Under the pieces are notes generated by a model, which worked only from the letters and a program-made list of their open reading frames with translations, searched no databases and was not told the DNA's origin. From a virus, in IMG/VR virus record IMGVR_UViG_3300043395_001677, positions 1 through 42,317 of that record: DNA of 42,317 nt; one strand, written 5' to 3'. Positions 3,320 through 41,337 of this stretch are shown piece by piece (the stretch's first letter is position 1; each line of letters starts with the position of its first letter). The translations under genes were made by a program, and so were the position numbers.

Positions 3320-3674
3320 CTGCCTCTTTCGTCAGCGGTTGTCCGCCGCTGGTGATGTCGTGCTTTTCCGTCACCTTGCCCGCTATCCGTTCCGCTATCA
3401 ATTCGGGTTTCTTTTTTATCCAACTGCGAACCATCAACCGCAGGGCATCTATCGTTTCCGACTGCTCCAGCGGTTTCATCGTGCCAGTGTCAAACTCCCT
3501 GCTCAACTCCTCCCAGATAACGGCAAGCAAAATCTGCTCCCCTTCGCGCTGTTCGGGGGACTTTTTACCGCGTCCAGATAACCACCGCCTCGGGTCGTAT
3601 CCCTTCTTAAATCCGCCCTTGCCCTCGGGGTTGTTGCCGCGTTTATCCAGATTTTGCTGGTTCGTTTCGCTCAT
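3231..3674 (-). CDS. terS: Putative terminase small subunit
   Basis: The 147-residue protein lies directly upstream of and overlaps the large terminase gene. The N-terminus is basic and Gly-rich (NNPEGKGGFKKGYDPRRW, then GRGKKSPEQREGEQILL), as in DUF5681-type phage proteins. The segment AGKVTEKHDITSGGQPL resembles the GKPTERIETTGADG-like stretch common near the end of small terminases. The expected role is recognition of phage DNA and regulation of TerL. The assignment rests on position and weak sequence pattern. It overlaps the upstream methyltransferase gene by 4 bases. Confidence 0.6.
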   Translation of the reverse strand: MSETNQQNLDKRGNNPEGKGGFKKGYDPRRWLSGRGKKSPEQREGEQILLAVIWEELSREFDTGTMKPLEQSETIDALRLMVRSWIKKKPELIAERIAGKVTEKHDITSGGQPLTKEADDTRAEILRKLDSIATATGAGKDAGQSDG

Positions 3675-4900
3675 TCCAGTCTCTTTATCTCCAACTCAGG
3701 GAACGCCCGCGCCATGCGATCCAACACAACCGAAGCGAAAGCTGGAGACAACTCAACCATCCTGCATAATCTGCCTTCATTCTCGCAAGCCAGCATTGTC
3801 GATCCGCTCCCGCCAAAGGCGTCGTAAACAACGTCACCACGTTCGCTACTATTCCTTACCATATGTTGCACTAACTCGACGGGTTTCATTGTTGGGTGTT
3901 CTTCGCTTCGCTTTGGTCGTGGATATTCAAAGACGCTCGACTGTGTTCTATCGGGCGTGAAATAATGCGCCCCGTCAGGCTTCCAACCATATAGAATGTT
4001 TTCATGCTTGAAATGGTAGTCGGCACGCGATAATACAATCTGGTCTTTCAGCCACATCAATCCCCAGCGGAAGTCAAAGCCACTACCAGCGAAAGATGAA
4101 ATCAAAGCGGGTAGTAGCGTGCCCGGCGGGCACGCTACATATATTGCCGCGCCTGCAACGCTAAACTCTGCCGCGGTCTTCAATGCAGAACGAATAAACT
4201 CCTCCAACTGGTCAGCGGGAAGGTCGTCGTTTTCTATTTTACGAACCCGATAACCCATCGGGTTCGTCGCTTCTATCTTGTCGCCATAATTCACGCCATA
4301 AGGCGGATCTGTCCACGTCAGGCGCGCGCGATCATCTCCAAACAAACGAGCCACATCCTCCCGCTTCGTGCTATCCCCGCACAAGAGACGATGCTCCCCG
4401 ATCTGCCACAGGTCGCCCGTTTTCACCTGCCACTTTTCCAACAGTTCCGCCGCCTTGTCTATCTGCGGTTCGGCGTCCGCCGTCGGTTTCTCCTCGCCCG
4501 TCAACTCCTGCCATTCTGAATCCGCGAACATCTTGCGGATGTCCTCATCCTCTCCCGCCCATTCTTTCAGGATGTCACCGTCTGGGTCAAAATCCGTCTT
4601 TGCGATCTGGTTTGCCGCCACAGACAACCGCCGCGCCCTCGGGTCATCCGCCGAGGGGATGTCAGTCCGCACCACAATAACGGGGCGCGTCCCGTCGCTC
4701 TCGACTACGATAGGTTCCACGTCCGCGAACTTTTCAGCAGACACCTCCAACCGCGCCGAACCGCTGATAATCTCACCGTCCGCCGCCGCTGTTTGTGCGT
4801 CGATAAACCCGTCACGCTGTAAGGACTGCTCCAACAGTCTCAAACCGTGCGGGGTGTGCTTGTTCGCGTTCTTGCGCTGTGGGATAAATTTACGGGGCAT
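3671..4900 (-). CDS. ParB-like domain fused to N4/N6 DNA methyltransferase (beta class)
   Basis: The 409-residue protein has two parts. Residues 1-100 form a ParB/Srx-like nuclease domain (IISGSAR at 45-50, then RRLSVAANQIA). Residues about 160-405 are a beta-class DNA methyltransferase with catalytic DPPY at 198-201 before HPTMKP (335-340) and the SAM-binding FGGSGST (362-368). The usual IELDP is MVELSP here. Such fusions are known in phages beside terminase genes and probably methylate phage DNA before packaging, either as anti-restriction or as a packaging mark. Base specificity cannot be read from sequence. Confidence 0.9.
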   Translation of the reverse strand: MPRKFIPQRKNANKHTPHGLRLLEQSLQRDGFIDAQTAAADGEIISGSARLEVSAEKFADVEPIVVESDGTRPVIVVRTDIPSADDPRARRLSVAANQIAKTDFDPDGDILKEWAGEDEDIRKMFADSEWQELTGEEKPTADAEPQIDKAAELLEKWQVKTGDLWQIGEHRLLCGDSTKREDVARLFGDDRARLTWTDPPYGVNYGDKIEATNPMGYRVRKIENDDLPADQLEEFIRSALKTAAEFSVAGAAIYVACPPGTLLPALISSFAGSGFDFRWGLMWLKDQIVLSRADYHFKHENILYGWKPDGAHYFTPDRTQSSVFEYPRPKRSEEHPTMKPVELVQHMVRNSSERGDVVYDAFGGSGSTMLACENEGRLCRMVELSPAFASVVLDRMARAFPELEIKRLE

Positions 4901-12878: not shown

Positions 12879-12897
12879 AAACCCAAGAAGGAGAATG

Positions 12898-13230
12898 TTA
12901 TTCGCGTCTGTGAAACAGCGGCGTGGCGTACTTGTCAAGCACCTGTTTCAGAAGTGTATTGTAGATCAGGGTGGCGAACCCGACAAATGCGGAAAGCGGA
13001 ACGAGCAGGTCGCCGATCCAGGCAATAAATAGCGGAACAAATGTCACCAAGTCCACCCACACAGGGAAGGCGGGCAAGGCGGGGGCGGCAAATGCAAGGG
13101 CAATTGCAAGGGACACCACATAAACAAGCACGGTCAACCAGGACGACTTAACCGTTACCTTTGCCATTTTCAGCATCCACACAATCACCGATGCAACCGC
13201 GCCAATCACGAACAACTGAATTTCTGTCAT
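12898..13230 (-). CDS. Holin-like integral membrane protein
   Basis: The 110-residue protein starts at ATG 13230 with GAGGT upstream. It has three or four hydrophobic segments: QLFVIGAVASVIVWML (5-20), WLTVLVYVVSLAIALAFAAPAL (about 31-52), FVPLFIAWIGDLLVPLSAFVGFATLIY (about 64-90), then a short charged tail ending KYATPLFHRRE. Size and layout fit a class I holin that would let the GH25 endolysin reach the wall. It lies apart from the endolysin, immediately beyond the cassette array, behind its own candidate promoter (13288-13296). The holin role is inferred. Confidence 0.6.
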   Translation of the reverse strand: MTEIQLFVIGAVASVIVWMLKMAKVTVKSSWLTVLVYVVSLAIALAFAAPALPAFPVWVDLVTFVPLFIAWIGDLLVPLSAFVGFATLIYNTLLKQVLDKYATPLFHRRE

Positions 13231-13260
13231 TGGTATTACCTCTTTTCTGTTGCAACAGGT

Positions 13261-13279
13261 CGGCGGGAACGCCCCGCCG
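13261..13279 (-). promoter_or_regulatory. GC hairpin in leader of the holin-like gene
   Basis: CGGCGGG and CCCGCCG form a 7-bp stem with a 5-base loop, 31 bases before the start codon. It is one of several similar hairpins placed upstream of genes in this genome. Confidence 0.45.
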
Positions 13280-13287
13280 TTACCGGC

Positions 13288-13296
13288 ATTATAGCA
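13288..13296 (-). promoter_or_regulatory. Candidate extended -10 promoter for the holin-like gene
   Basis: TGCTATAAT on the - strand (13296-13288) is a perfect extended -10 element. I see no good -35. It lies between the truncated last attC and the holin-like gene. Confidence 0.45.
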
Positions 13297-13307
13297 TAAA
13301 AGCGTCA

Positions 13308-13330
13308 GCCCGAACGGGTTGCGTTAGCGG
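13308..13330 (-). other. Truncated attC (L'-R' half) at the distal end of the cassette array
   Basis: CCGCTAACGCAACCCG then TTCGGGC on the - strand closely matches the L'-R' half of the preceding attC (CCGCTAACACGAAACCCG, TTCGGC). No matching left half lies upstream; the space is occupied by the end of the cassette 7 gene. The array therefore seems to end in half a site. Confidence 0.55.
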
Positions 13331-13656
13331 TTTGCGGGGTTTTGAGTGCCACAAACCGAGCAAAGCACATCGGCTATCTTGACGTTTTTTCCGCAGTGCT
13401 TACAGCAAATCCGCTGCACGCTGTGTTCGGCGGCGCTGCTGATACGCCTGATCGCACGATCGCGCAAAAAGTTTTTCACGCGGATAGCACCGATATACCT
13501 TGCCTTTGGCTGATGCGACCAAACAAGATATGGACACATTCTGCCAGTTACCATACTAGGACGCCAAATAATATTGACAATCTTTTTTATTGTTTTATGC
13601 TTACCTTTCGCGGAGGGAGTGAACTCCCACTCATCACCAATTCTAGGAATAAACAT
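13324..13656 (-). CDS. Cassette 7 gene: hypothetical protein with C-terminal zinc ribbon
   Basis: The 110-residue product starts at ATG 13656 with AAGGTGA upstream, 24 bases into the cassette that follows attC6. The N-terminal half is basic and beta-rich (MFIPRIGDEWEFTPSAKGKHKTIKKIVNI). The C-terminus carries CCKHCGKNV...LCSVCGTQNPANR, a typical CxxC-CxxC ribbon. Its stop codon lies inside the truncated attC. No family is recognised. Confidence 0.65.
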   Translation of the reverse strand: MFIPRIGDEWEFTPSAKGKHKTIKKIVNIIWRPSMVTGRMCPYLVWSHQPKARYIGAIRVKNFLRDRAIRRISSAAEHSVQRICCKHCGKNVKIADVLCSVCGTQNPANR

Positions 13657-13678
13657 TTTTCACCTTTTGCAAAGAGCC

Positions 13679-13803
13679 GCCGAACGGGTTTCGTGTTAGC
13701 GGTGAGTGGCGGGGACCGTCTTTGCGGGCGATTCCCCATCCTTTTGTACACGTGGCACATAGGGCTGTGCGTACCACTCATCCGCTGCACACGAGGGTTA
13801 GCC
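13679..13803 (-). other. attC site 6 (between cassettes 6 and 7)
   Basis: Read on the - strand it opens with GGCTAAC (13803-13797) and closes with GTTCGGC (13685-13679). The inner arms GTGTGCAGCGGATGAGTGG and CCACTCACCGCTAACAC pair with unpaired extra bases on one side only, as in attC folds. The site is 125 bases long with a variable terminal loop. The R'' box is non-canonical at position 2 and R' has C at position 4. The stop codon of the cassette 6 gene lies in R''. Confidence 0.8.
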
Positions 13804-14145
13804 GCTGCCCTTGACTTTGTTATAGACAGCGGCGACAACAACTACAAAAACAAGCGACAAGGGAACTGCGACACCATACTTATTCCACAAATCGTCAGTG
13901 TTCAAAACAATCAGAAATGCAAATCCAGCGACAGCAACCAGAATAAGCACCCACTCGAATATTTTAGATGCTATCTCTCCGAATCTGCCTCGGCGTTTAT
14001 CTTCCTCGTATTCTCGCCAGGCACGTTCAACAGCCACAACGCTATCACCTGTTTGCAGGGTATGTCTGTGATCGTGTGGTTTCTGTGGTTCTCCAACAAT
14101 CACCTCGCGTTTTCCGAACCATTCTTTCAATAAATCAATCGGCAT
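13798..14145 (-). CDS. Cassette 6 gene: membrane protein with N-terminal soluble region
   Basis: The 115-residue product starts at ATG 14145 with AAAGGAG at 5 bases; the longer frame to 14259 is unlikely. Residues 1-55 are charged and helical (WREYEEDKRRGRFGEIASK), followed by two membrane segments (WVLILVAVAGFAFLIVL and VAVPLSLVFVVVVAAVY). It ends with KVKGSG inside attC6. The function is unknown; small membrane proteins are common cassette products. Confidence 0.65.
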   Translation of the reverse strand: MPIDLLKEWFGKREVIVGEPQKPHDHRHTLQTGDSVVAVERAWREYEEDKRRGRFGEIASKIFEWVLILVAVAGFAFLIVLNTDDLWNKYGVAVPLSLVFVVVVAAVYNKVKGSG

Positions 14146-14168
14146 TTTTCTCCTTTCGCAAGACAGGC

Positions 14169-14210
14169 GGCTAATGGGGCGAGCGTCAGTTGCCCGCCGA
14201 GCGGTTAGAA
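14169..14210 (-). other. Degenerate short attC-like boundary (site 5)
   Basis: On the - strand TTCTAAC (14210-14204) and ATTAGCC (14175-14169) flank a 7-bp hairpin GGCGGGC/GCTCGCC with a 7-base loop. It sits where an attC is expected, between cassettes 5 and 6, and the base pattern after it (GCCGCCTGTCTTGCGAAAGGAG) resembles other cassette starts. Core boxes deviate from consensus, so it may be a decayed site. Confidence 0.45.
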
Positions 14211-14449
14211 CGGGGCGACGGGTCTGGAGTACGACCGCAGGGCTCACACAATTCATCATAGCGAAAACCGTGCGGGCAGTATTTCACAGCCCCGCGAATG
14301 GGCGTGACCCGCTCCAACGGGAGTTCGGCGGCGCGGGTCAGGCTCAAGAGTTTTGTCAATTTATCGTCAATTACCAGCAACCGTTCTCCCAAAGAGCCGA
14401 GACCAAACAGCACAATCACAAACATAATAAACTCAAATAACGGCGACAT
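14186..14449 (-). CDS. Cassette 5 gene: membrane-anchored protein with Cys-rich tail
   Basis: The 87-residue product starts at ATG 14449 with AAAGGA upstream. One membrane segment (FEFIMFVIVLFGLGSLGERLLV) is followed by a helical part and YCPHGFRYDELCEPCG, a possible zinc site. The last residues (PSPRSNRSAGN) are encoded by the attC-like boundary. Unknown function. Confidence 0.6.
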   Translation of the reverse strand: MSPLFEFIMFVIVLFGLGSLGERLLVIDDKLTKLLSLTRAAELPLERVTPIRGAVKYCPHGFRYDELCEPCGRTPDPSPRSNRSAGN

Positions 14450-14496
14450 ATTTTCCTTTCAGGGAGCCGATACTCCCGTTGTTCAACTTCGCCCAT

Positions 14497-14546
14497 TTCG
14501 GCGGACCGAGCCCCCCGCTCTTTGGGGGAGCGAAGCGTCCGCCGAA
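14497..14546 (-). repeat. Perfect 10-bp inverted repeat at the start of cassette 5
   Basis: TTCGGCGGAC (14546-14537) and GTCCGCCGAA (14506-14497) pair perfectly, with an inner CTCCCCC/GGGGGG stem. The left arm includes the cleaved R' box of attC4. It would hold the recombination point inside a second hairpin and lies in the leader of the cassette 5 gene. Confidence 0.7.
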
Positions 14547-14651
14547 CGGTTTGCGTAACCCGCAGGAGCGAGAACGCAAGAACATAAATTTATTTACCAG
14601 TACCACCGTGAGCCGTGACGTTGCTCCTGTCGGGTTCACGCTGTGTTAGAC
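14541..14651 (-). other. attC site 4 (between cassettes 4 and 5)
   Basis: On the - strand GTCTAAC (14651-14645) opens and GTTCGGC (14547-14541) closes a 111-base imperfect palindrome. The inner arms GCGTGAACCCGACAGGAGC and GCTCCTGCGGGTTACGC pair completely except for one extra G and one extra A on the left arm, which is the extrahelical-base pattern of attC sites. It is the clearest site of the array. Confidence 0.88.
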
Positions 14652-15300
14652 CCCGTATGAGACCTTCGACAAAAAGACGGGTCTTATCATGCAAGACTAT
14701 TTTGTCTTTGTTTTTCTCATACCATTCTGATGGGTCTGGATTTCCAGTAATCGCCATACCTGCCCCAACCCAATCGGCAACCATTTCGCGGGCGTAGACT
14801 TCTGGCATAGGCAAGGCGATCATAAGAGATTCGCGGTTTAGGCGCTCTGCGACCTGCTTGAGTAAGTTGTAAATGACATTCTTTCCACCGACAAAAGCGG
14901 TAGTGTCGTCTGCAACTTCATCAATAAAATGAGTTTGCTCTTTTGCATCCCATAAAACGAGCGGATACCCGTCGCCGTGCGCCTGAATGTAATACCGCTC
15001 TTTGGCGGGAACTTCAAAGGTGAGCCAATAACCCCAATGATGTTTGTTGCTGCTTTCGTGATGCTGCCACGCACGCAAGAACGCAAGTTTATCGGCGTCT
15101 GACTGATAATCATTTCTGTTTCGGCGCGTGCCATCGGGATTGAAAAAGTTACGGACATACGCGCCCCATTCCTGCGGCGTGAACTTTGTCCAATCGTGAA
15201 CAATAGCCAAATGAAGCGGAACGCCAAGACGCAAACACGCCTTGAACACAAACCACTTATGGCGCAAAACATATTTTAGGTATTCTGTGTGTGCTTTCAT
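14590..15300 (-). CDS. Cassette 4 gene: DUF5662-like protein
   Basis: The 236-residue protein starts at ATG 15300, 23 bases into the cassette, with AAAGGTT upstream. Motifs HDWTKFTPQEWGAYVRNFF and HHESSNKHHWGYW, then PMPEVYAREMVADWVGAGMAITG, fit the DUF5662 family of phages and bacteria, whose His/Asp clusters suggest a metal-dependent enzyme. The reaction is unknown. The last 20 or so residues (after GLIRGLTQREP) are encoded by attC4. It is the largest cassette gene and of a kind usually seen in phages. Confidence 0.75.
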   Translation of the reverse strand: MKAHTEYLKYVLRHKWFVFKACLRLGVPLHLAIVHDWTKFTPQEWGAYVRNFFNPDGTRRNRNDYQSDADKLAFLRAWQHHESSNKHHWGYWLTFEVPAKERYYIQAHGDGYPLVLWDAKEQTHFIDEVADDTTAFVGGKNVIYNLLKQVAERLNRESLMIALPMPEVYAREMVADWVGAGMAITGNPDPSEWYEKNKDKIVLHDKTRLFVEGLIRGLTQREPDRSNVTAHGGTGK

Positions 15301-15316
15301 AACCTTTGCCTTAGGG

Positions 15317-15406
15317 GTCTAACGGTTATGCGTTACCTGCCGCCGCTTCCGACGACAGCCCATCATCCGACGCGCCAGCGGCGGTCAGGTGCACGCTTTG
15401 TTGGGC
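15317..15406 (-). other. attC site 3 (between cassettes 3 and 4)
   Basis: On the - strand GCCCAAC (15406-15400) opens and GTTAGAC (15323-15317), a full GTTRRRY core, closes the 90-base site. The inner arms GCGTGCACCTGACCGCC and GGCGGCAGGTAACGC pair with a bulged A and mismatches near the base. The arms are identical to those of attC2, so the two cassettes likely share an origin. Confidence 0.9.
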
Positions 15407-15661
15407 GTTTTGATGTTGCGCCACCCATTCATTTTCAAGCATGACAAAAATATTGTGACGCTCTTTTTCTGGCTTTGAATAAAACTCTGCGTACTTCTCA
15501 GAGTTCAAAACTTCGTAAAGTTTCAAAGTGCAATCAACGCAATACTCATCGTGCGTTTTGCATTTATCGCAACCAAAACGCAAAAGCGGGAGAGATGAAA
15601 AATCACTATCATCTAAAAGCAAAAAGCCAGCGCATTGAACATCGAGCCTTTTATTTTTCAT
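15326..15661 (-). CDS. Cassette 3 gene: hypothetical Cys-rich protein
   Basis: The 111-residue product starts at ATG 15661 with GGAG at 5 bases. The frame is open further upstream through a 130-base leader, but no start there has a good site. It contains RFGCDKCKTHDEYCVDC, a possible zinc site, then helices. The final segment (AQQSVHLTAAGASDD...) is encoded by attC3. Unknown function. Confidence 0.6.
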   Translation of the reverse strand: MKNKRLDVQCAGFLLLDDSDFSSLPLLRFGCDKCKTHDEYCVDCTLKLYEVLNSEKYAEFYSKPEKERHNIFVMLENEWVAQHQNAQQSVHLTAAGASDDGLSSEAAAGNA

Positions 15662-15793
15662 AGTTTCTCCAATTTGTTGGGCGCAGGGTCGCGTAGTGTT
15701 TGCACGAAGCGCGATTCTCTGACGAGAACTTTCACGCCTACCTTGTACACCTGTGTCTTTCGTGTCGCACACATTCCTGTTTTGCAAGGAAAC

Positions 15794-15919
15794 GCCCAAC
15801 GGCTGGCGTTACCTGCCGCCGAATACTGAATACAACAACACCAAGACAGATATGACATGAACACAAAATGACACCCAAAGCACACGCCGCAAGGCGGTCA
15901 GGTGCACGCTTTGTTGGGC
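15794..15919 (-). other. attC site 2 (between cassettes 2 and 3)
   Basis: On the - strand GCCCAAC (15919-15913) and GTTGGGC (15800-15794) are exact complements, and both match the RYYYAAC/GTTRRRY cores. The inner arms are the same as in attC3; the terminal loop is longer, giving 126 bases. The cassette 2 reading frame continues through almost all of it. Confidence 0.9.
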
Positions 15920-16090
15920 AGATTTTATGACAGCGAGATCGACAAAAAGGGAAAGGTCGCCGTTTGCACTCGGAATAACAGAGCGGACAAATCGCCAAAG
16001 ATAATTGTGTAATTCTGCAATGTAATCAAATTGCTCGCTCTTGTGGCTGATAAACTCGTTTGCCAAAAAACCATTTGGACGCTGCTTCAT
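15809..16090 (-). CDS. Cassette 2 gene: hypothetical protein ending in an attC-encoded hydrophobic segment
   Basis: The 93-residue product starts at ATG 16090 with AAGGTGA upstream, 38 bases into the cassette. The native part (RPNGFLANEFISHKSEQFDYIAELHNYLWRFV...) is helical. From residue about 57 the frame runs into attC2 and gives SAQQSVHLTALRRVLWVSFCVHVISVLVLLYSVFGGR, which could span a membrane. Whether the tail is functional or only read-through cannot be judged. Confidence 0.6.
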   Translation of the reverse strand: MKQRPNGFLANEFISHKSEQFDYIAELHNYLWRFVRSVIPSANGDLSLFVDLAVIKSAQQSVHLTALRRVLWVSFCVHVISVLVLLYSVFGGR

Positions 16091-16122
16091 TTTTCACCTT
16101 CTTTCTTGCGGGCAAGGGGTCT

Positions 16123-16249
16123 GCCGAACGGATTGCGTAAGCGGCGGCTAGGTGGTCGCCAACCGCTTACATTTGCGCTCGTCACTTTCTCTACAGACGC
16201 CACCACCGCGCTGACAATCCTAGCCGTCCGCCTTCACGCTGTGTTGGGC
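16123..16249 (-). other. attC site 1 (between cassettes 1 and 2)
   Basis: On the - strand GCCCAAC (16249-16243) opens and GTTCGGC (16129-16123) closes the 127-base site. The inner arms GGCGGACGGCTAGG and CCTAGCCGCCGC pair with an extra A bulge. The long loop carries no gene. R' has C at position 4. Confidence 0.85.
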
Positions 16250-16426
16250 AGACTTTATCAGTTCTTCGAGTTTATCTGCCGCGATTTTCATACACTCTTC
16301 GCCAAGTCTCGGATCACCGAAAAACCATTGATTTTCTTGCACCAAACCAATAATCTTGAAAACAGGTTCTTCGACGATCTCAAGAAATGTTAGGGCGGAT
16401 ATACCACCTTGAATTTTATCTTTCAC
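16220..16426 (-). CDS. Cassette 1 gene: small hypothetical protein
   Basis: The 68-residue product starts at GTG 16426 with AGGAG at 5 bases, 29 bases into the first cassette. Helical sequence (TFLEIVEEPVFKIIGLVQENQWFFGDPRLGEECMKIAADKLEELI). It ends SAQHSVKADG, encoded by attC1, like the AQQSV tails of cassettes 2 and 3. As first cassette it lies about 45 bases from the array promoter's start point. Unknown function. Confidence 0.6.
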   Translation of the reverse strand: MKDKIQGGISALTFLEIVEEPVFKIIGLVQENQWFFGDPRLGEECMKIAADKLEELIKSAQHSVKADG

Positions 16427-16449
16427 CGTTTCTCCTTTTGGAAGGGTCT

Positions 16450-16456
16450 GCCCAAC
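16450..16456 (-). other. attI-like recombination core at the head of the cassette array
   Basis: A lone GTTGGGC on the - strand, followed by AGACCCTTCC, marks where cassette 1 begins. The bases after it match those after the R' of attC1 (AGACCCCTTG). No left half of a palindrome precedes it, as in attI sites, which also have a single structured core. It could alternatively be the remnant of a lost attC. Confidence 0.6.
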
Positions 16457-16479
16457 TATGTTTTAGACTGTATGGGTAC

Positions 16480-16508
16480 ATAATACTACAATCCATATAC
16501 CTTGTCAA
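16480..16508 (-). promoter_or_regulatory. Strong sigma-70 promoter reading into the cassette array (Pc-like)
   Basis: On the - strand TTGACA (16508-16503), 17 bases, TATTAT (16485-16480). The -35 lies in the last codons of the upstream zinc-ribbon gene. Transcription would start about 15 bases before the attI-like core and run through all cassettes. Confidence 0.85.
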
Positions 16509-16776
16509 GAGCGTCACGTATCTGCCGACTGGTCAGTTTTAGGTGTCTTTCCGCCAGTCCACGCCGTACCTTGTAAATCGCCTCACCATCCCCATTCCCC
16601 CATTTATACAGCGTGTATCCCGTCGTCCCGTCGTTATGGTGCGTGACACCATAACGACTGAAACGCCCGCAATGGTCGCACTGCACCAATACGGGTTGGT
16701 GTTCCAGTTGCGCCTTTGTGGGCGGGCGGACTTCGGCGCGTCCGCACTTTTTACACAGTTGTTCTAAGTATTTCAT
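16486..16776 (-). CDS. Zinc-ribbon hypothetical protein
   Basis: The 96-residue product starts at ATG 16776 with AAAGGA upstream. Cys pairs at KKCGRAEV (CKKCG) and QCDHCGRF form a ribbon, followed by a basic helical part (RRGLAERHLKLTSRQIRDALDKVYGL) that may bind DNA. It ends the replication-proximal gene run, and its last codons carry the array promoter. Confidence 0.65.
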   Translation of the reverse strand: MKYLEQLCKKCGRAEVRPPTKAQLEHQPVLVQCDHCGRFSRYGVTHHNDGTTGYTLYKWGNGDGEAIYKVRRGLAERHLKLTSRQIRDALDKVYGL

Positions 16777-16900
16777 TTTTTCCTTTCACCATCACCCGCC
16801 CGCAGTCGGGGCAGGTGTATATCTTTTCCGTCTCAGTTTCGGCGGTCAGGACGTAGTTTGTCCGCACCCAGCAAACCGCGCACCATGTCCAGATGGTCAT
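16751..16900 (-). CDS. Zinc-ribbon mini-protein (49 aa)
   Basis: The 49-residue product runs from ATG 16900 (4-base overlap with the preceding stop) to TAA 16751, overlapping the next gene by 26 bases. It has CAVC near residue 7 and CPDCG near residue 30, a zinc ribbon split by a beta hairpin. The coupled start supports it. Confidence 0.6.
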   Translation of the reverse strand: MTIWTWCAVCWVRTNYVLTAETETEKIYTCPDCGRVMVKGKNEILRTTV

Positions 16901-17022
16901 AGTTTACCGCCGAAGATAAACCATTCTACAATCCGCTTGAATAGGCGTCCGTACCATGCGCCGCGTTCTTTGGCGACAATGGCGCGGTCAAGCGTCAGGG
17001 ACAGTCGGGGGTGGAAGTTCAT
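16897..17022 (-). CDS. Small basic hypothetical protein (41 aa)
   Basis: The 41-residue product runs from ATG 17022 to TGA 16897, with 4-base overlaps on both sides. Sequence MNFHPRLSLTLDRAIVAKER then GAWYGRLFKRIVEWFIFGGKL; the C-terminal half is amphipathic and could touch membrane. The tight coupling is the main support. Confidence 0.55.
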   Translation of the reverse strand: MNFHPRLSLTLDRAIVAKERGAWYGRLFKRIVEWFIFGGKL

Positions 17023-25824: not shown

Positions 25825-26219
25825 TGAGCATTGCAGACATTGTAATTGATGGTTTGATGTGGATCGGTGCCATTGGTCTTTGTGTGATAGTCACTGTCCT
25901 CTTGTTGCTGTTCCTGACCCTGCGGGCGTCACTGACAACGGACGACAAAATCAAAGAACTTGAGTCCGCCCATCATAACCAGTCACAGGCAGAAACCAAT
26001 CAGCGTTTGGGACTGGCATGGAAGGGCAAGGCGGCAGGTTTCGGAACACCTGAATCGGAGCGGATAAACCGTGAACTAATGGAACTAGACAGGAAACATC
26101 AAAAGGCATGGAATGCCCGCACCAATGAAATTAACAAACTGCGCTTTCCTGTTTCAGACGAAGAATACGCCGCGCTGGATGCCGAGATTGCGGAGCGGGC
26201 AAAAAGGAAAGGGCAATGA
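25824..26219 (+). CDS. Membrane-anchored coiled-coil protein
   Basis: The 131-residue product has one N-terminal membrane segment (IGAIGLCVIVTVLLLLFLTLRA, about residues 14-35) and a long charged helical domain (DDKIKELESAHHNQSQAETNQRL, ERINRELMELDRKHQKAW). It could be a spanin- or scaffolding-like membrane anchor, but nothing specific supports that. 4-base overlap with the next gene. Confidence 0.6.
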   Translation: MSIADIVIDGLMWIGAIGLCVIVTVLLLLFLTLRASLTTDDKIKELESAHHNQSQAETNQRLGLAWKGKAAGFGTPESERINRELMELDRKHQKAWNARTNEINKLRFPVSDEEYAALDAEIAERAKRKGQ

Positions 26220-26479
26220 TTCAATTTCTCCGCCGCTTGTTCCGCCCTCGTATCTGGATGCCGCCTGACAACAAGTTTGAGCATGAGGACGACGCATGGA
26301 AGGAACTGCAACGGCGCGGGTACGCAGTTCTCGAACACAACGGGCAGTATTGCATTACCGACTGCGGAGAAGAGGCGTCCCCCTGGTTTGTCAGTGACAG
26401 TCTTGAGGCGCGTGTCAGAAATATTCGGGCATGGGCGAATGATGAACTTGCGATAATTGAGAGGCGAAAAAAGAATTGA
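26216..26479 (+). CDS. Hypothetical protein
   Basis: The 87-residue product has a basic, amphipathic start (MIQFLRRLFRPRIW), then an alpha/beta part (DDAWKELQRRGYAVLEHNGQYCITDCGEEASPWFVSDSLEARVRNI). No family recognised. It overlaps the upstream gene by 4 bases. Confidence 0.6.
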   Translation: MIQFLRRLFRPRIWMPPDNKFEHEDDAWKELQRRGYAVLEHNGQYCITDCGEEASPWFVSDSLEARVRNIRAWANDELAIIERRKKN

Positions 26480-26485
26480 GCGACG

Positions 26486-27034
26486 ATGGATAATTGTTAT
26501 CCCGTTTTGATGGAAGTCAAAGCAACTGTTGATTTTATTCTCGGCTTCATGGTGATATTTGTCACCGCGTTTGTTGGATGGGTGAGCGTAGTAAACAAAG
26601 TGCGGCGTGGTGACAAATCACAGGAGCAGGGCGAACCGATGCCGCGTGTCAATGGTTGGCAGTTGGTCATTAGCGTTTTAGGGCAGTTGTTCCAAAGACC
26701 CCGCCGCAGGAAGTACAGCATGACGACAAAGAAACTTGTCAACCTGGGCGACGTCAACCCCATCCCCGAAGTCCCGCCCGAACTGGAACGCTGGATGGCG
26801 CGTGAACTATTGCGCGAACTGGACGGCGGTAAAATGGCGGATGAAGTCAGTCTGTCGGTTGATACGTGGGTCACGTCTGGACTCTGGAAAGGGACACAGA
26901 AAGAGTTCGCCGCGCTGATGGACAAATGGCAGGAAGAGGGAATTGTGTACAGGAAGAACAGGCGCGGTGATCGGGCGTTTGTGCAACCGTCCCGCCCGTC
27001 GATACGGGCGAGGATGAAGGCAAAGGTAAAATGA
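26486..27034 (+). CDS. Membrane-anchored hypothetical protein, possibly with an internal start
   Basis: The 182-residue product has an N-terminal membrane helix ([20 protein letters not shown], about 18-37). The C-terminal soluble part from about residue 79 ([34 protein letters not shown]...) contains a Trp-rich helical domain and basic tail. AGGAAG precedes the internal ATG near 26720, so a shorter cytoplasmic form may also be made. No family recognised. Confidence 0.6.
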
Positions 27035-28160: not shown

Positions 28161-29783
28161 CTAGAAATCGACCACTGTAAAGAACTTTGTCAGGATGAAT
28201 GAGAAGCGGACGAGGTTTGTCGCGCCTATTTCAAACTCGATACCCTGCACGTTGTACTGCACGTCACTTGTCCCGCTCATCGTTTCGCTGAATTGGTACA
28301 CGGCGGGCGGTGAGGCGTACATAAAGACGAGCATGTTTTTCGCGTTTCGGTTGGCGGTGAACGATACCCGCTCCAGGTAGGTGTGCGGTGTTTTGAAGTC
28401 CTGCGCGCTGACAATATCGGACGCCAAAAGAACGGCATTATTCAACTCGTCCGAATACTGCCAGGGGATGACAATTTCATGCTTGCCATATTGCTGGATG
28501 CTTGTTTCATCTTCCTGTGTGATGTCCGTCTTATCGTACACATAGACGCCCCGCCCCCTGACTTGGAACAGAATATCTCCGCCAGTGTAGAGCGTTGTCC
28601 CGCCCGTATTCTCCAGCGTAATTTCCGCCTCCGCCGCGCCGAATGTCACATTCACTGACAAATTCGCGGTAAGGTCTGTGCCTGTCCCATTTGCATTGGC
28701 GTATGCTTTATAGTCTGTGTTGGCAACAGGCGTCACGAAGTCCACGCCGTTGATCTTCTCGCTTTGCCCGTTGGGGTCGCGGTATCTTCCGCGTATGTCC
28801 GTTTTGGTTGCGCCCGGAGCAATCTCCAAACTGTTCTCCATCGTCCACAGGACGGTATTCGCCGCCGCGTCCAGTTTGCGCGGGTAGGTCTGGATGGTGC
28901 ATGAGTTTACCGTTTGCCTGCCGTGCGTGATGACGGGTTGCAGTGTCGTGTCGTAGTCGGCATCTGAAAAGGTGATAGTCTGGAATTGCCCTAGCACCAG
29001 TTTGCTGGCATTGTCCGCCAATAACAAATGACTGGAATTATCCGCAAGCAGGAAGAACCCCGCGTCTGTGGAGTATTCGGGAATCGCGCCGAACCCCACG
29101 CCTTCCACGTCACCGTATTTGTCGCCGCCTGCCCGGCTGGTGAAATACAACGTTTCACCCCTTATCCCGTCGCGCAGTCTTACAACGCGCCCCCATTCCG
29201 ACATTGCCAGTTTTTGAAACTCACCCAATGCCGTTGTAAAGTTCGAGGACGTGTCAAACACGGTTGCAAACTGACTTGTCCCTGTCTGATAGGTATATCC
29301 CTGCGGCGGGATGGGCATGTTATCCAGAACAAGTTGTATCGCCTCGTTGGGTCGCTGGTTGCTCTGGGACGCCATCAGGTCCAGTATCCAGTCCGAGGCA
29401 TAACGCATCCAGTCGGAGCAGGTGACATTGACGCGCCGCATCCCATAAATGCCCGAGGTGATCTGTATCCCGTCCACGTTGATGTAATACCTGTCATAAA
29501 CGGTATTGCCATCATATTTGTATTCAAGTCTTACGGGCAACCCAGACTGCCAACCCGTCAGGGTGTTGGCGTGTTCGGGACTGTAATACCCCAGAGTGGT
29601 GACGCTGTTCTTCTCGGAGTTGTCCAACTGAAACGACAGTGTTCCCACATCCGCCACGCGCCCCATAAACGTTGAGTCGGAGATGCCGTAAAACCCGCGA
29701 ATGGGGAAGATGACATCGGGCGTCAAGTCCACCCACGAACCGCTGATATATACCTCGACCTTGATGCTGGTAAACTGCTCCAT
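28161..29783 (-). CDS. Tail tip / baseplate hub protein (Tal- or Dit-like)
   Basis: The 540-residue protein follows the tape measure gene with a one-base overlap. The N-terminal part (IKVEVYISGSWVDLTPDVIFPIRGFYGI... GTLSFQLDNSEKN) and the middle (TCSDWMRYASDWILDLM, RGETLYFTSRAGG) resemble the beta-barrel and hub domains of siphovirus tail-tip proteins. A repeated SHLLLADNASKLVLGQ stretch lies mid-protein. The role is inferred from order (after tape measure) and pattern. Confidence 0.75.
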   Translation of the reverse strand: MEQFTSIKVEVYISGSWVDLTPDVIFPIRGFYGISDSTFMGRVADVGTLSFQLDNSEKNSVTTLGYYSPEHANTLTGWQSGLPVRLEYKYDGNTVYDRYYINVDGIQITSGIYGMRRVNVTCSDWMRYASDWILDLMASQSNQRPNEAIQLVLDNMPIPPQGYTYQTGTSQFATVFDTSSNFTTALGEFQKLAMSEWGRVVRLRDGIRGETLYFTSRAGGDKYGDVEGVGFGAIPEYSTDAGFFLLADNSSHLLLADNASKLVLGQFQTITFSDADYDTTLQPVITHGRQTVNSCTIQTYPRKLDAAANTVLWTMENSLEIAPGATKTDIRGRYRDPNGQSEKINGVDFVTPVANTDYKAYANANGTGTDLTANLSVNVTFGAAEAEITLENTGGTTLYTGGDILFQVRGRGVYVYDKTDITQEDETSIQQYGKHEIVIPWQYSDELNNAVLLASDIVSAQDFKTPHTYLERVSFTANRNAKNMLVFMYASPPAVYQFSETMSGTSDVQYNVQGIEFEIGATNLVRFSFILTKFFTVVDF

Positions 29784-32119
29784 TACGAGAAACGGCTCCT
29801 GTCCGCGTTGACTGCCCGCCCGATTCCAAGTTCCGTCGCGGTCTTTGCCACCAGTTCTTTGAGCAGGTCGTTTGTCCTGCGCGTCTCCGCCGTCATCTGC
29901 GTGACTGCCATCGTCATCCCGACCTGTGTCTGCGTGACCGCCTGCTGAACGCCGGTTATCACGGGTTGCATGACCGCCGTTGAAACATCAACGCCCGAAA
30001 CATCCGTTGCGCTCGTCTTAGGCTTGTTAAACGACGCCCCGCCGTAGGTGACGAAGTGTAACGGGTTAAGTGTCGTTTCACCATCCAGCATAATCGCGCC
30101 GCCCGATGCGTACCTGTTCACACCGCTCATGCTCGGAAGCATGGCGCGTGTCTGTTGCGCGTTGTACACATAAGCGCCATGAGGTGCGTACACGAGTTCA
30201 CTGTAAGCGGTCGGTCCCGCGTGACTGTCGCCCGTCAACGCCCACCCGCTGAACGAACCACCCGAGGCTTCCATTGCAATATTCGGACGCGGGACGCCTG
30301 CTGATCCAGTCCCGCCACCGACGAGTTGCCCGCCACCCGCACCCGTTGCGGGCAGGTTGCCAGTTGTAATAAAATTGATGTAGGCGTCAACGCTCATTCC
30401 GTCCAGCATGGACAGGTATTGATAGAAACGCTCCGCCATTTTTGCCGCTTCATCTGCCGACTGTGACGTATTGGCGAACACGTCCGCGAAACCCATCATT
30501 GCCTGCTGTTGTTTGTAAACTTCCTCGCTGATTTGCCCTGTTGCAAGGGCAAATTCCATTTGCTTTTGTGCGGCGTCTTCCTCTCCTGCGGCGGTGGCGA
30601 TCAACCCCATCATGACATCGTTTTGCATGTTGCGCTGTTCTTCCGCCGCCTGAATACGTACCTGCGACACCTCCATTTCCACCTGCTTGACAACTTCCGC
30701 CTGCTCTTTTGCGCGTTTGCTGTTCTCGCCGTACATCCCCTGTATTTTCAATAATTCCTGTTGTTCTTCCACAAGCGCGGCGTTCGCCTCACGAATAGCA
30801 TCCGCCCGTTGCTTTGTAAATTCGGTCAGTTTCAACGCGCCGGGAAGCATGGCGGCGTAGTTTTCGGGTATCTGTCCCGCCGCCGCACCCGCGCCGCTCT
30901 CCTGCGCCGCCCGCGTCTGATACCACCTGTTGCGTGCCTCGTTGACAAGTTGCGAGCGTGCGGTCTGTTGCGCCTGTTGCGCCCCAAGACCAAAACCACT
31001 TTGATTGAACCCCATTGACGCCATGCGCTGAGATACAGACTCATTACTCGCCCACGTCGGCAATTCACGAACCCACCTATCCGCGCCAAGTCCGCCTGAC
31101 ATATCCAGAACCGTGCGCCCAGACGACAGGTTGGCAATACCCGTCATAAACTGACTGACGCCCTCCATCGTGGACGCCAGCATATCCGCCATTCCGAGTT
31201 TTGCTTCGTTCTTGATGTTCTCAACAGACGCTTCGAAGCGCATGTAATTGCCGTAACGGGAATCTGCCAGGTTGCCCGTTGTGGCAATGGTCGCCTCGCC
31301 CGTCCTCAAAAATGCCTCAGTGAACAAGTCCTCTTTGGACAGGTTCGGCATTTCCTTTGCCACTTCTTTTTGGATCTGCTTGAAACGGGTCAGGGAAAGT
31401 CCCAACTGGTCAAGGCGGCGGGTGGACTGGTTCGCCAATGCGAGCGTAACTTCGCCCGTATCCATGCCGAGCGCGGTCATCACCCCGGCCAGGCGTGTCG
31501 CTTCTTTTGCGTTCTTTGCCAGTCCCAATTGCAAAACGTCAGAACCGAGTTTCAATGCGCTAAAGTCTGATACCGTGCCGCGTGTGGCGCGCCGTAAGTC
31601 GTTCAGGAATACGTCACCCGTTGTCCCTACGGACTTCGCCAGTCTGTCAAATTTGATGCGAGTTAGTTCGACCTGTGCGCCGCTTTTCCCAAACTCGTAT
31701 ATCTGTTTCCCCGCTACCCCGATGGCAACAGCAGACGCGCCAAATTTTGCAATGGACATTGCCGCCGCGTTGATCTTCGGGCGGATAACGTCCATCTTCT
31801 CGCCAAACGTCATGGTCTGCCAGACGTTGCGTTTCATCTGCTGTTCGTATGCTTTGTATTCCCGCGTCGCCTGTGCAATGCTCATATTGCCCTTGGCGAC
31901 CTTATCCCCCAATACCTGCGCCTTATTTGCGAGACTTGCCCCCGCCTGTGCCGCCGCGTATTGTGACTTGCTCCACCCATCCATCAGGGCAGATGCGTTT
32001 GCCTGTGCAGAACCCAGCCCCTTCATGGCAGTTTCCAGTTTTTTCGCCCCCGCTATCGCAGACTGGAAACCCTGCGCGGTATTATCTTTTGCGGTAATAG
32101 TGACAACGACTTCGCTCAT
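29783..32119 (-). CDS. Tail tape measure protein
   Basis: The 778-residue protein is the longest in the genome. It has an N-terminal coiled coil (residues 1-110), a hydrophobic stretch (INAAAMSIAKFGASAVAIGVAGKQIYEFG, about 115-143), a conserved tape-measure core (RIKFDRLAKSVGTTGDVFLNDLRRATRGTVSDFSALKLGSDVL), long coiled coils (KQRADAIREANAALVEEQQELLKIQGMYGENSKRAKEQAEVVKQVEMEVSQVR), and a C-terminal helical tail. Such proteins set tail length at roughly 0.15 nm per residue, so a tail of about 115 nm is expected. No lytic domain is visible. Confidence 0.92.
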   Translation of the reverse strand: MSEVVVTITAKDNTAQGFQSAIAGAKKLETAMKGLGSAQANASALMDGWSKSQYAAAQAGASLANKAQVLGDKVAKGNMSIAQATREYKAYEQQMKRNVWQTMTFGEKMDVIRPKINAAAMSIAKFGASAVAIGVAGKQIYEFGKSGAQVELTRIKFDRLAKSVGTTGDVFLNDLRRATRGTVSDFSALKLGSDVLQLGLAKNAKEATRLAGVMTALGMDTGEVTLALANQSTRRLDQLGLSLTRFKQIQKEVAKEMPNLSKEDLFTEAFLRTGEATIATTGNLADSRYGNYMRFEASVENIKNEAKLGMADMLASTMEGVSQFMTGIANLSSGRTVLDMSGGLGADRWVRELPTWASNESVSQRMASMGFNQSGFGLGAQQAQQTARSQLVNEARNRWYQTRAAQESGAGAAAGQIPENYAAMLPGALKLTEFTKQRADAIREANAALVEEQQELLKIQGMYGENSKRAKEQAEVVKQVEMEVSQVRIQAAEEQRNMQNDVMMGLIATAAGEEDAAQKQMEFALATGQISEEVYKQQQAMMGFADVFANTSQSADEAAKMAERFYQYLSMLDGMSVDAYINFITTGNLPATGAGGGQLVGGGTGSAGVPRPNIAMEASGGSFSGWALTGDSHAGPTAYSELVYAPHGAYVYNAQQTRAMLPSMSGVNRYASGGAIMLDGETTLNPLHFVTYGGASFNKPKTSATDVSGVDVSTAVMQPVITGVQQAVTQTQVGMTMAVTQMTAETRRTNDLLKELVAKTATELGIGRAVNADRSRFS

Positions 32120-35241: not shown

Positions 35242-35479
35242 TGTTATTCTCCTCATACGCCGCCCGCCGTGCGGGGGCGTCGTCTAAAAACTTTTGTACA
35301 ACGGGTGCGCGTGTGCCTTCCAAATGGGGCGGCAGTCCGTTCCAATTCACCGCCACCGCCTGCGGTATGCGGTGCATAACCGCGCCGCACTCACAGACCC
35401 GCCGCACATCACACTCCAAGATCGGGTGTGTAAGTGTAGTGATATGGTTCGCCTTGCATTTGTACTGATACGTCGGCAC
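35234..35479 (-). CDS. FmdB-type zinc-ribbon protein
   Basis: The 81-residue product starts at GTG 35479 (GAGGTGA upstream), inside the end of the glycosyltransferase-methyltransferase gene (71-base overlap). It begins MPTYQYKCKANHITTL and continues CDVRRVCECGAVMHRIPQ, the FmdB/CxxC regulatory family pattern often found in phages. The C-terminal part is disordered. Function in phages is unknown. Confidence 0.7.
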   Translation of the reverse strand: MPTYQYKCKANHITTLTHPILECDVRRVCECGAVMHRIPQAVAVNWNGLPPHLEGTRAPVVQKFLDDAPARRAAYEENNNA

Positions 35480-36917
35480 GTCTCACCTCAACAAAAATTA
35501 TCTGTCTTCCGTCGCTGGTATTGGTCACAACTGGCAACTTATTTGCAACGAAACCAGTGGGCAGGTTGTCAATGAATTTGTTGCATCCCATCCCCTCGGG
35601 TTTGCCTGCGGTGTAGTAGTCATCGAACACCGCAACTGATTTACCCGTCAGGTTTGCCAGGACTGCCCGCCCGTCATTCTCGATGGTTCTTTCGGAATGT
35701 CCGCCGTCCACGAAGTACAGGTCGGCGGGGAGCAGTTCGTGAATGGTGTAATTCGTATCGCCTTCGACAAGTTCCACGTCCGCGCCTGTCGCATCCATGC
35801 GCTTTTTCACCACATCGAAAGGTTGCCCGCGCTTGGATAACTCGCTTTTGTACTGTCTCAGCGTTTGCCCCTCGAACAGGTCAAAACCCTGATACGTTAC
35901 AAACTCGTTATACTTCTGCGCCTGTTGTATCATGCGGATGCCGTTGTTCCCGTTCCACGTCCCGATCTCGCAGATGCTGGCGGGGCGTTCCCTGTCGATG
36001 ATGTCAAGCAGTTGGGTGTATCTGCTCATCCCGCGTTCAGGATACAAGTCCACAGACTCACCCAAAAGACGCCCGCACAATATGGCGTATTCAGCGGCGT
36101 AATCCTGCCACGTCCACGCCCTTATTAGTTGGTGGTGATAGACCGTTTGGGCGAACATGCTCTCCAGTTTGTAATACAGGTCTTCGGGCGTCTCATACAG
36201 GTATTCATTATCCAGCAGGTCGGAGGCATACCCGAATTTTGGCGATAAAACAGGAACGCCGCTTGACATGCACTCCAACAGGGGAAGCGGACCGCCTTCG
36301 CGGTATCCCGTCACCACCAGTACATCGAGAAACCTTAGGACAGTTTGAAGTTTGTCGAAGGTGTCCGCGTGATGCCATGAACAGGATACGCCCAGACTGT
36401 GCAAACGTTCCGTCATGCCTTCCCATCCCGCGCCGGTCAGGATAAATTCAAAAGGTGTCAGGTCGTATTGCCAGGCAAGGTCAAGCAACATCCCTTCGCG
36501 CTTCCTGCCGTTGGGTTGGGGGTATCCGATAATGCCGATCAACCGCTTGCGGAATTTGAAATCGTCCGCCGCGCAATAGATGACGTGTATTTTCTTCGGA
36601 TCAACGCCCAGGTTGAGCAGTTCATCCCGTCCTGTGAACGACATGGCGGTTACGATGTCCGCACGGTTGCAAGCGTCCGCCACCATTTCCTCCATGCCGA
36701 CGTTGGTGTGGGTGTAAACCGCGACATGCTTGCCATTGCCCTGCTTTTCCATGCCGATGAGCGAATGGAAAGGGAAATGGATGTTTATATCCGCCTCGTG
36801 GTCAACCGCGTCGCTGGTCGTGACGTTGTACAGGTTGGGGAAGGTTGCCTTGAGCGGTTCGGTCATGCGTATCATCGCCGCGCTATCGTAGGGGTTGACA
36901 ATGTGAATGGTTTTCAT
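35409..36917 (-). CDS. Bifunctional GT4-type glycosyltransferase fused to a class I methyltransferase
   Basis: The 502-residue protein has two domains. Residues 1-280 are GT-B glycosyltransferase (GT4 pattern: HVAVYTHTNVG, LTGAGWEGMTERL, then VVTGYREGGPLPLLECMSSGVPVLS with the nucleotide-sugar-binding E-x7-E region). Residues about 295-480 form a Rossmann methyltransferase (ASICEIGTWNGNNGIRM as SAM loop, QGFDLFEG, DLYFVDGGHSERTIENDGRAVL, VAVFDDYY). It is encoded among capsid genes with a GT-A enzyme, so it may decorate virion proteins or the host surface with a methylated sugar. Substrates are unknown. Confidence 0.85.
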   Translation of the reverse strand: MKTIHIVNPYDSAAMIRMTEPLKATFPNLYNVTTSDAVDHEADINIHFPFHSLIGMEKQGNGKHVAVYTHTNVGMEEMVADACNRADIVTAMSFTGRDELLNLGVDPKKIHVIYCAADDFKFRKRLIGIIGYPQPNGRKREGMLLDLAWQYDLTPFEFILTGAGWEGMTERLHSLGVSCSWHHADTFDKLQTVLRFLDVLVVTGYREGGPLPLLECMSSGVPVLSPKFGYASDLLDNEYLYETPEDLYYKLESMFAQTVYHHQLIRAWTWQDYAAEYAILCGRLLGESVDLYPERGMSRYTQLLDIIDRERPASICEIGTWNGNNGIRMIQQAQKYNEFVTYQGFDLFEGQTLRQYKSELSKRGQPFDVVKKRMDATGADVELVEGDTNYTIHELLPADLYFVDGGHSERTIENDGRAVLANLTGKSVAVFDDYYTAGKPEGMGCNKFIDNLPTGFVANKLPVVTNTSDGRQIIFVEVRRADVSVQMQGEPYHYTYTPDLGV

Positions 36918-40218: not shown

Positions 40219-40674
40219 CTTTTTCTCCTTTACGATTTGGACTTCATACAATGCCGCCGCTTCCCCCAGGTGGGGCGTGTGTAGCATTGCATCCCCCAGG
40301 ATAAGCGGCCCCATGATATAGTCGCCGCTCTGGGGGTCTTCCAGCCCGCCGTCGTCCCAGACGACCTCGGGCGATTGATAACGATAAGCACCGTCGCGTA
40401 TTGCGCCCAGTCCTTTTTCGTTCCACTCCGGGATAGCGTATAAACCATCTTCGCGCACTTCCAACCCGATGATATGCCCGCCTGCGGGCGTCTCCTCTTC
40501 GTGACTGCCAAGTTTGATTGGCGGTTTGAAATGCGGTAACTTGAATTTGCGGGCGTATTCGGGGGTGATTTCCCTCACGTTGCCATTCTTGACGACGCGC
40601 CCAAACGGGAACAGGCGGTAAGGTTCGCCCGCCTGTGTAAAAACGAATTGGTCAAAAAGGTATGTGTTGTCCAT
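39718..40674 (-). CDS. Mu I-like prohead protease and scaffold
   Basis: The 318-residue protein starts at ATG 40674 with only a weak ribosome site. The N-terminal domain (VREITPEYARKFKLPHFKPPIKLGSHEEETPAGGHIIGLEVREDGLYAIPEWNEKGLGAIRDGAYRYQSPEVVW) matches phage I-like proteases: HFKPPIKLGH with the catalytic region and the RDGAYRYQSPE stretch. The C-terminal half is scaffold coiled coil, also made separately from the internal start. It should trim scaffold and capsid during maturation. It is preceded by the 18-bp direct repeats. Confidence 0.82.
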   Translation of the reverse strand: MDNTYLFDQFVFTQAGEPYRLFPFGRVVKNGNVREITPEYARKFKLPHFKPPIKLGSHEEETPAGGHIIGLEVREDGLYAIPEWNEKGLGAIRDGAYRYQSPEVVWDDGGLEDPQSGDYIMGPLILGDAMLHTPHLGEAAALYEVQIVKEKKMETVNIPTSFWEKFTAFLDAKLNPPQEAPPALPEDYEVSKRERDEYKAKLDAIEREAQEKARVEKFAAELAQTDATADLAPVLAGLTDENAELILRELRALTERVKVSALTEQKSTEGEAVEDPKAAFNALVLKYSAEHKLPYNRAFEIVKAENKELFTAWAVREK

Positions 40675-40697
40675 AGAAACCAAAAACCGCCAGTCCT

Positions 40698-40715
40698 GCG
40701 GCGATTTGAACTGCC
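40698..40715 (-). repeat. 18-bp direct repeat, copy 1 (operator-like)
   Basis: GCGGCGATTTGAACTGCC on the + strand recurs exactly at 40726-40743, giving a 28-base period in the leader of the protease gene. Confidence 0.9.
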
Positions 40716-40725
40716 AACAAAACGG

Positions 40726-40743
40726 GCGGCGATTTGAACTGCC
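40726..40743 (-). repeat. 18-bp direct repeat, copy 2 (operator-like)
   Basis: Exact copy of 40698-40715, just downstream of the predicted start of transcription from the promoter at 40762-40789. Confidence 0.9.
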
Positions 40744-40761
40744 TTTATTCAGTTGTTGTTT

Positions 40762-40789
40762 ATTCTACCACAAATCAAGTGCTTTTCAG
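40762..40789 (-). promoter_or_regulatory. Candidate promoter for the capsid genes
   Basis: On the - strand CTGAAA (40789-40784), 16 bases, TAGAAT (40767-40762), with TGG as extended -10. It lies between two genes and just upstream of the 18-bp repeats, and would raise protease, decoration and capsid transcription. Confidence 0.45.
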
Positions 40790-41041
40790 CCTCTTCTCAA
40801 ACTGTTGCACCGCCGCCTCAATAAAGGCGCTCTCGCGGGTCATGCCTGTGTTTTGTAATGTCTCAAAGGCATCTATAAATCCATCAATGGGGATGCCGAG
40901 GCGGTCGAGTTTATTCACCGCAAGCGGTTCACCTCTCATCACCATGCGGTACAGGCGCAACCACTGGACGCCAGTTATAAACTCGTGTATCAACCGCTCT
41001 TCCGACTCAAGCCCTTTTTCTATAAGCGTGTCAATGTCCAT
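40775..41041 (-). CDS. Small helical protein of the head module
   Basis: The 88-residue product is set at ATG 41041, 6 bases after AAAGG; ATG 41044 is 3 bases from it. Sequence MDIDTLIEKGLESEERLIHEFITGVQWLRLYRMVMRGEPLAV... is helical. It lies before the protease gene. No family recognised. Confidence 0.6.
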   Translation of the reverse strand: MDIDTLIEKGLESEERLIHEFITGVQWLRLYRMVMRGEPLAVNKLDRLGIPIDGFIDAFETLQNTGMTRESAFIEAAVQQFEKRLKST

Positions 41042-41056
41042 CATCTGCCTTTCTGC

Positions 41057-41287: not shown

Positions 41288-41337
41288 TATCTGCCTTTCA
41301 TCTGAAAAGAACCAACAGGCATATTATAATCCACAAC

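Follow-up and report, generated by a model that had tools for sequence, protein, structure and literature searches.

An array of integron gene cassettes with an attI-like leading core and no integrase in the genome of a tailed phage

Phage genome, attC sites and cassettes

The window analysed here is the whole of the IMG/VR virus record IMGVR_UViG_3300043395_001677 (42,317 bases), which holds on its minus strand, between positions 13309 and 16508, an attI-like core preceded by a promoter-like site, followed by a series of short genes with attC sites, an arrangement pointing to an integron gene-cassette array within a phage genome. The same 127 bases stand at both ends of the record, as expected for a closed circular assembly of 42.2 kb. 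The genome encodes portal, terminase, major head protein and head protease, and is therefore that of a tailed phage (Caudoviricetes); its other products include an endolysin, a DnaB-like helicase, a primase-like protein and a polymerase exonuclease subunit. A first-pass annotation, made from the letters alone, had reported that neither IntI nor any other tyrosine recombinase is encoded, and indeed no match to TIGR02249 or PF00589 was obtained in the genome, an absence that suggests a virulent life style. The intI gene of a complete integron is thus lacking, and the six attC sites, in one orientation and with cassette-like spacing in a closed genome free of integrase, place the window among the clusters of attC sites lacking integron integrases (CALINs).

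The attC sites were searched with a covariance model trained solely on 37 sites from bacterial genome contigs (Anaerolineae chromosomal), whose 24 pairs have 95.4% of their cells paired and a covariation of 0.279, versus 0.100 in shuffles. An unfiltered search of both strands of the 42 kb returned six strong matches, all on the minus strand and within 13309-16249 (E 4e-16 to 3e-7), the seventh-best match having an E of 0.36. These are attC1 (16123-16249, E 1e-12), attC2 (15794-15919, E 4e-16), attC3, a short form of 90 nt (15317-15406, E 7e-13), attC4 (14541-14651, E 9e-13), attC6 (13679-13803, E 3e-7) and attC7 (13309-13431, E 8e-12). The first five lie exactly where the first-pass annotation had placed them, whereas its half site at 13308-13330 does belong to an attC, but as the 3' end of the complete attC7, whose R'' box (GCCGAAC, 13425-13431) falls within the gene of cassette 7 and whose R' box reads GTTCGGG. 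An arm-pairing scan independent of the model gave 6 minus-strand matches, whereas 40 block shuffles averaged 0.15, with no more than 1 in any of them. The extra unpaired bases claimed for one inner arm were also recovered, since all six sites hold an unpaired A (bottom-strand T) at one constant stem position; R''/R' and L''/L' boxes, a hairpin and extrahelical bases on one arm, the features of an attC, are accordingly all present. An Rfam scan of the window yielded nothing above gathering scores. As a positive control, the model was applied to two published CALIN-bearing phages; it gave one weak match in TJE1 (E 0.0025), and its only match in P12002L was not significant (E 1.1). The model is therefore specific to its clade, and attC sites of other types would escape it.

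Counting from the leading edge, cassette 1 (16129-16455) carries a gene of 68 aa (16220-16426), and cassette 2 (15800-16128) one of 93 aa (15809-16090), the last 36 codons of which lie within attC2. Cassette 3 (15323-15799) holds a gene of 111 aa (15326-15661) with homologues in other phages and in a chromosome, and cassette 4 (14547-15322) a gene of 236 aa (14590-15300) for a DUF5662 protein (Pfam PF18907, E 5e-35), the only clear family match among the cassettes, the products of the others being unassigned. The remnant of cassette 5 (14175-14546; gene 14186-14449, 87 aa) has no recognisable attC and is probably fused to cassette 6 (13685-14174), whose gene (13798-14145) encodes a hydrophobic protein of 115 aa. 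Cassette 7 (13315-13684; gene 13324-13656, 110 aa) closes the array with a weak zinc-ribbon match. No convincing defence gene was found by PADLOC among the cassettes of the window.

The genes had been described as alternating with the palindromes. However, most of them overrun, and genes 1, 2, 3, 4 and 7 enter their own attC by 27, 108, 78, 59 and 105 nt, respectively; several of the proteins share an AQQSVH-type tail because of this extension. The Cys4 zinc-ribbon-like C-terminal segment of protein 7 is coded entirely within attC7, and segments of this type are coded in attC sites of three phage records: the window (13324-13431), the record G015 (see below) and IMGVR_UViG_3300012676_000035. 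The third-position share, 38% in attC loops (80/210) and 46% in gene bodies (466/1017) with 33% expected, gives a weak indication of protein-level selection within the loops.

In a cassette circle, the opening TTRRRY pairs with the R'' box at the cassette's own far end, and within an array that R'' box adjoins the TTRRRY of the neighbouring cassette. Five of the six testable cassettes of the window have perfectly matching ends of their own (exact permutation p 0.017): cassettes 1 and 3 (TTGGGC/GCCCAA), 4 (TTAGAC/GTCTAA), 6, which starts at A^TTAGCC (TTAGCC/GGCTAA), and 7 (TTCGGC/GCCGAA), while the ends of cassette 2 differ at one base. When the test is restricted to starts at sites supported by the covariance model, the match is 4/6 and marginal (p 0.05). 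Pooling of the viral records, with 58 cassettes, gave an own-end match in 45/58 and a within-site match in 5/58, with 8.3 expected (permutation p<1e-5). Such matching has hardly any explanation other than integron-type recombination at G^TT, and the cassettes, as G^TT-bounded units with complementary ends of their own, have the make-up of gene cassettes and are predicted to be excisable.

Leading edge and candidate integrases

The array starts at 16456 on the minus strand, with CAGTCTAAAACATA^GTTGGGC. This edge, along with a promoter-like site upstream of it, was overlooked in the first-pass annotation. A host-attI matrix was built from 15 cores, retained out of 40 loci after an iterative search for host attI, among them the cores ATCCACATAAAACATA^GTTAGAC, CGCTTTATAAGACATA^GTTAGGC and GGCTGTATAAAAAGTA^GTTCGGC, which precede the first cassette beside true Anaerolineae intI genes. 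With this matrix, the window core TACAGTCTAAAACATA^GTTGGGC (16450-16472, minus strand) ranks first of the 1632 GTT sites with a score of 13.05, inside the range of 6.7-18.0 obtained for the host cores when each is left out in turn. The class 1 attI1 has a comparable end, CCTAAAACAAA^GTTAGGC, as confirmed in plasmid records. Facing the array on the same strand, TTGACA-17-TATTAT (16480-16508) agrees with the promoter consensus at 11 of 12 positions, a match of consensus only. Judged by its sequence, the window would thus have an attI adjoining its first cassette, and both core and promoter may be functional.

A match to IntI above the curated cut-off was found in 98 of the 396 Anaerolineae genomes sampled (about 25%). 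This frequency of intI, together with the attI-like core, makes a host IntI acting in trans the likely joining agent; the suggestion of the first-pass annotation that insertion used a host integrase thereby gains in likelihood, but stays indirect. The host itself is probably a bacterium of the Anaerolineales (Anaerolineae, Chloroflexota).

Some phages encode candidate enzymes of their own. A tailed phage, IMGVR_UViG_3300038829_000181 (G001), carries a true IntI (404 bits; intI at 40398-41375) and a cassette array at 1-2126 on the same strand. At the wrap of this contig, 127 nt are common, but G^TTGGGC is preceded by GA in the copy after intI and by CC, as after an attC, in the other, and its cassette 1 may occur in two contexts within the population. 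In IMGVR_UViG_3300048592_000613 (G005), six attC sites (14601-16926) adjoin an IntI-like recombinase on the same strand (12897-14270; 204 bits, under the cut-off), which is 29% identical to the IntI of G001 and keeps part of the IntI-specific region.

Related arrays in phages and chromosomes

Cassette 3 links the window to other genomes. Copies of it were found in two phages, G002 and G003, and also in the chromosome of Anaerolineales H5_CFX6, as part of an integron (locus L092), with 88-93% amino acid identity; the H5_CFX6 copy shares 93% DNA identity and lies about 1.3 kb from intI. In the four-way alignment, identity starts exactly at G^TTGGGC and stops at the attC, and all flanks differ. 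A 21-base attC pattern recovered 90 stretches in bacterial genomes, mostly of Anaerolineae/Chloroflexota.

Similar arrays are found in many other viral records, all of those examined being metagenome assemblies. A single attC half-pattern occurs in 109 stretches of IMG/VR, and the covariance model, run on 76 of these loci, found attC sites in 66 contigs and two or more in 57; several of the array-bearing records have end overlaps. The leading edge is the best attI match of the whole record in G002 and G004, and the record with the closest capsid relative (79%) has a core ATAAAACATA^GTTAGGC followed by one cassette-like unit, in whose attC the R'' box is altered and the support from the model is weak. 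The same core, with attC sites downstream, heads the arrays of G421, G422 and G423, in none of which IntI was found. The last of these, IMGVR_UViG_3300042876_000151, is a phage record of 21.9 kb with an 84-bp end overlap, a terminase, an attI-like core and attC sites. When leading edges are defined independently, by a match to the R'' box of the first attC, a score of at least 6.5 is reached in 9/63 viral arrays versus 0.1% of random GTT sites, and most of the remaining arrays begin with the tail of an attC and so with an earlier cassette. A scan of viral contigs with the attI pattern gave 21 matches, most of which were set aside for having no attC nearby. The structural genes of G002, G003, G004, G015, G421, G422 and G423 are those of several different phage types.

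Viral and chromosomal cassettes differ in their build. The chromosomal attC sites are 127-131 nt long in 169/176 cases and below 115 nt in one, whereas 17/31 of those in phage records fall short of 115 nt (p 1e-15). Chromosomal cassette genes normally end before or at the start of the attC, and overrun it by at least 25 nt in only 9/157 cassettes, compared to 20/30 and 78/105 in two sets of viral contigs (p 4e-13 and 1e-32). Loci drawn from hosts with the same half-pattern keep this difference, with overrun in 4/20 versus 78/105 (p 7e-6) and short attC sites in 1/22 versus 63/109; as the host sets were retrieved by attC patterns, they contain too few chromosomal arrays of other attC types. One reading is that compact viral cassettes reflect packaging limits; another is that they stem from an unsampled host lineage with such attC sites. 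The split in attC length and gene overlap may make the direction of cassette flow readable from sequence. The sole short attC among the 176 chromosomal ones (L092, 5665-5755) is that of cassette 3 in H5_CFX6, a hint of transfer from phage to chromosome.

Interpretation and relation to known systems

The agreement of the covariance model, the folds, the circle signature and the shared cassette 3 supports the view that this phage, though it lacks an integrase, holds a genuine array of integron cassettes. More specifically, the locus is interpreted, with a probability of about 0.85, as an integrase-less integron platform in a tailed phage of Anaerolineae, formed by a promoter-like site, an attI-like core and about seven cassettes, which host IntI most likely joined in trans. 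Each cassette would have arrived as a circle, which an integron integrase then joined at G^TT. During infection of an integron-bearing Anaerolineae cell, host IntI would act in trans on folded attC bottom strands and recombine them with the attI-like core or the attC sites of the phage, resulting in cassette gain or loss, and the phage promoter would transcribe the first cassettes.

Several points weigh against this interpretation. The case for recombination in this phage is a sequence-based one, and the assignment of the host depends on attC similarity and on distant relatives of the major capsid protein, detected in 5/396 Anaerolineae genomes. The degenerate site proposed at 14169-14210 was rejected, since the model gives there only a match of 5.8 bits (14162-14198, E 8.7). 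The sister phage G015, with a helicase 84% identical to that of the window, carries other cassettes, in an array of its own that lies at a different place and behind a broken attC, and an attI is therefore not universal. No empty site was found among relatives of the helicase, the capsid protein or the downstream gene, as these relatives do not have both flanks in common with the window. A DNA search of the 396 Anaerolineae genomes with the whole array recovered cassette 3 and none of the others.

A dead relic, left by a single capture of part of the host's chromosomal integron through ordinary recombination and by now inert passenger DNA, would fit the apparent fusion of cassettes 5 and 6, the R' box of attC7 and the broken attC that opens the array of G015. 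Such a relic is nevertheless unlikely, as the neighbours of cassette 3 differ between the four genomes, the ends of five window cassettes still match perfectly, arrays are found in many unrelated phages, and viral arrays are unlike chromosomal ones in attC length and gene overlap. That the window is an assembly chimera, with a bacterial cassette array misjoined into a phage contig, has to be considered for any metagenome assembly. However, the contig closes by its 127-bp overlap, the G+C content of the array (0.49) is near that of its flanks (0.51-0.52), and no fewer than 57 other viral contigs contain arrays of this kind, several array-bearing records having end overlaps, which makes a misjoin highly improbable.

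On the other hand, the enzyme might come from a related phage instead of the host, if array-only phages relied on co-infection with IntI-bearing ones. The true IntI and array of G001, and the divergent enzyme beside the six attC sites of G005, speak for this source. However, the window core matches chromosomal attI, and co-infection is not needed given how common IntI-bearing host chromosomes are, so a phage-borne supply appears rather unlikely. A broader proposal going beyond host IntI in this one phage, held here tentatively and with somewhat less than even confidence, is that phages of Anaerolineae own an integron lineage, attI-headed and integrase-less, served by host IntI in trans, with a compact pool of cassettes (short attC sites overlapping coding sequence) exchanged among phages and with chromosomal integrons.

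The first-pass annotation considered attC sites in phages to be rarely reported. CALINs were described in 2023 in the virulent phages TJE1 (Tetrasphaera), P12002L (Polaribacter) and PH101 (Pseudoalteromonas), and their attC sites were shown to be recombined by IntI1 (Qi et al. 2023, PMC9892861); the attI-headed, integrase-less and compact form seen here departs from these known phage CALINs. A literature search in which few subscription papers and preprints were covered retrieved no case of integrase-less arrays with an attI at their head in many phages of a single host class and no contrast between viral and chromosomal attC length and gene overlap. The window resembles those virulent phages in holding attC clusters without intI in a tailed phage, and adds an attI-like leading core, of which the parts of that study consulted describe no counterpart in its virulent phages, along with a promoter-like site, a cassette also present in a chromosomal array next to intI, a host of a different phylum and short attC sites overlapped by genes. 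The cryptic Shewanella prophage M16-3 (PMC9892861) is alike in being a phage-derived element with a CALIN headed by a host-type attI, but it is an inactive prophage of Shewanella with an intact intI.

Compared to the sedentary chromosomal integrons of Anaerolineae, such as that of H5_CFX6, the window shares the attC family, the type of attI core and one cassette, but those integrons have intI and uniform attC sites of 127-131 nt, which in about 94% of cassettes follow the stop of the gene. With class 1 mobile integrons it shares a mobile carrier, heterogeneous attC lengths and a similar core (CCTAAAACAAA^GTTAGGC in attI1, TCTAAAACATA^GTTGGGC in the window); however, it is devoid of intI, its carrier is a phage, and no resistance genes were recognised in it.

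If this interpretation of the window as an integrase-less platform is true, integron cassettes would regularly be carried by phages in a phylum where integrons are common. For sul4, a mobile resistance gene, Chloroflexota have been suggested to be an original host (PMC12772301). An attI without an integrase would confine site-specific gene uptake to the inside of integron-bearing cells, and the accessory gene content of the phage would therefore be tied to the recombinase of its host.

The window gene at 12898-13230, just downstream of the array, has a 61% homologue in IMGVR_UViG_3300012676_000035, likewise located a short distance downstream of attC-like sites. A DNA methyltransferase (N6_N4_Mtase) with a ParB-like N-terminal match is encoded at 3671-4900, and two cassette genes of G004 (IMGVR_UViG_3300035457_000002; 26057-26551 and 29425-29946) resemble it with 25-28% identity, in line with the methyltransferases in other phage cassettes. 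A large protein combining a glycosyltransferase part and a methyltransferase part is encoded at 35409-36917, amid the structural genes.

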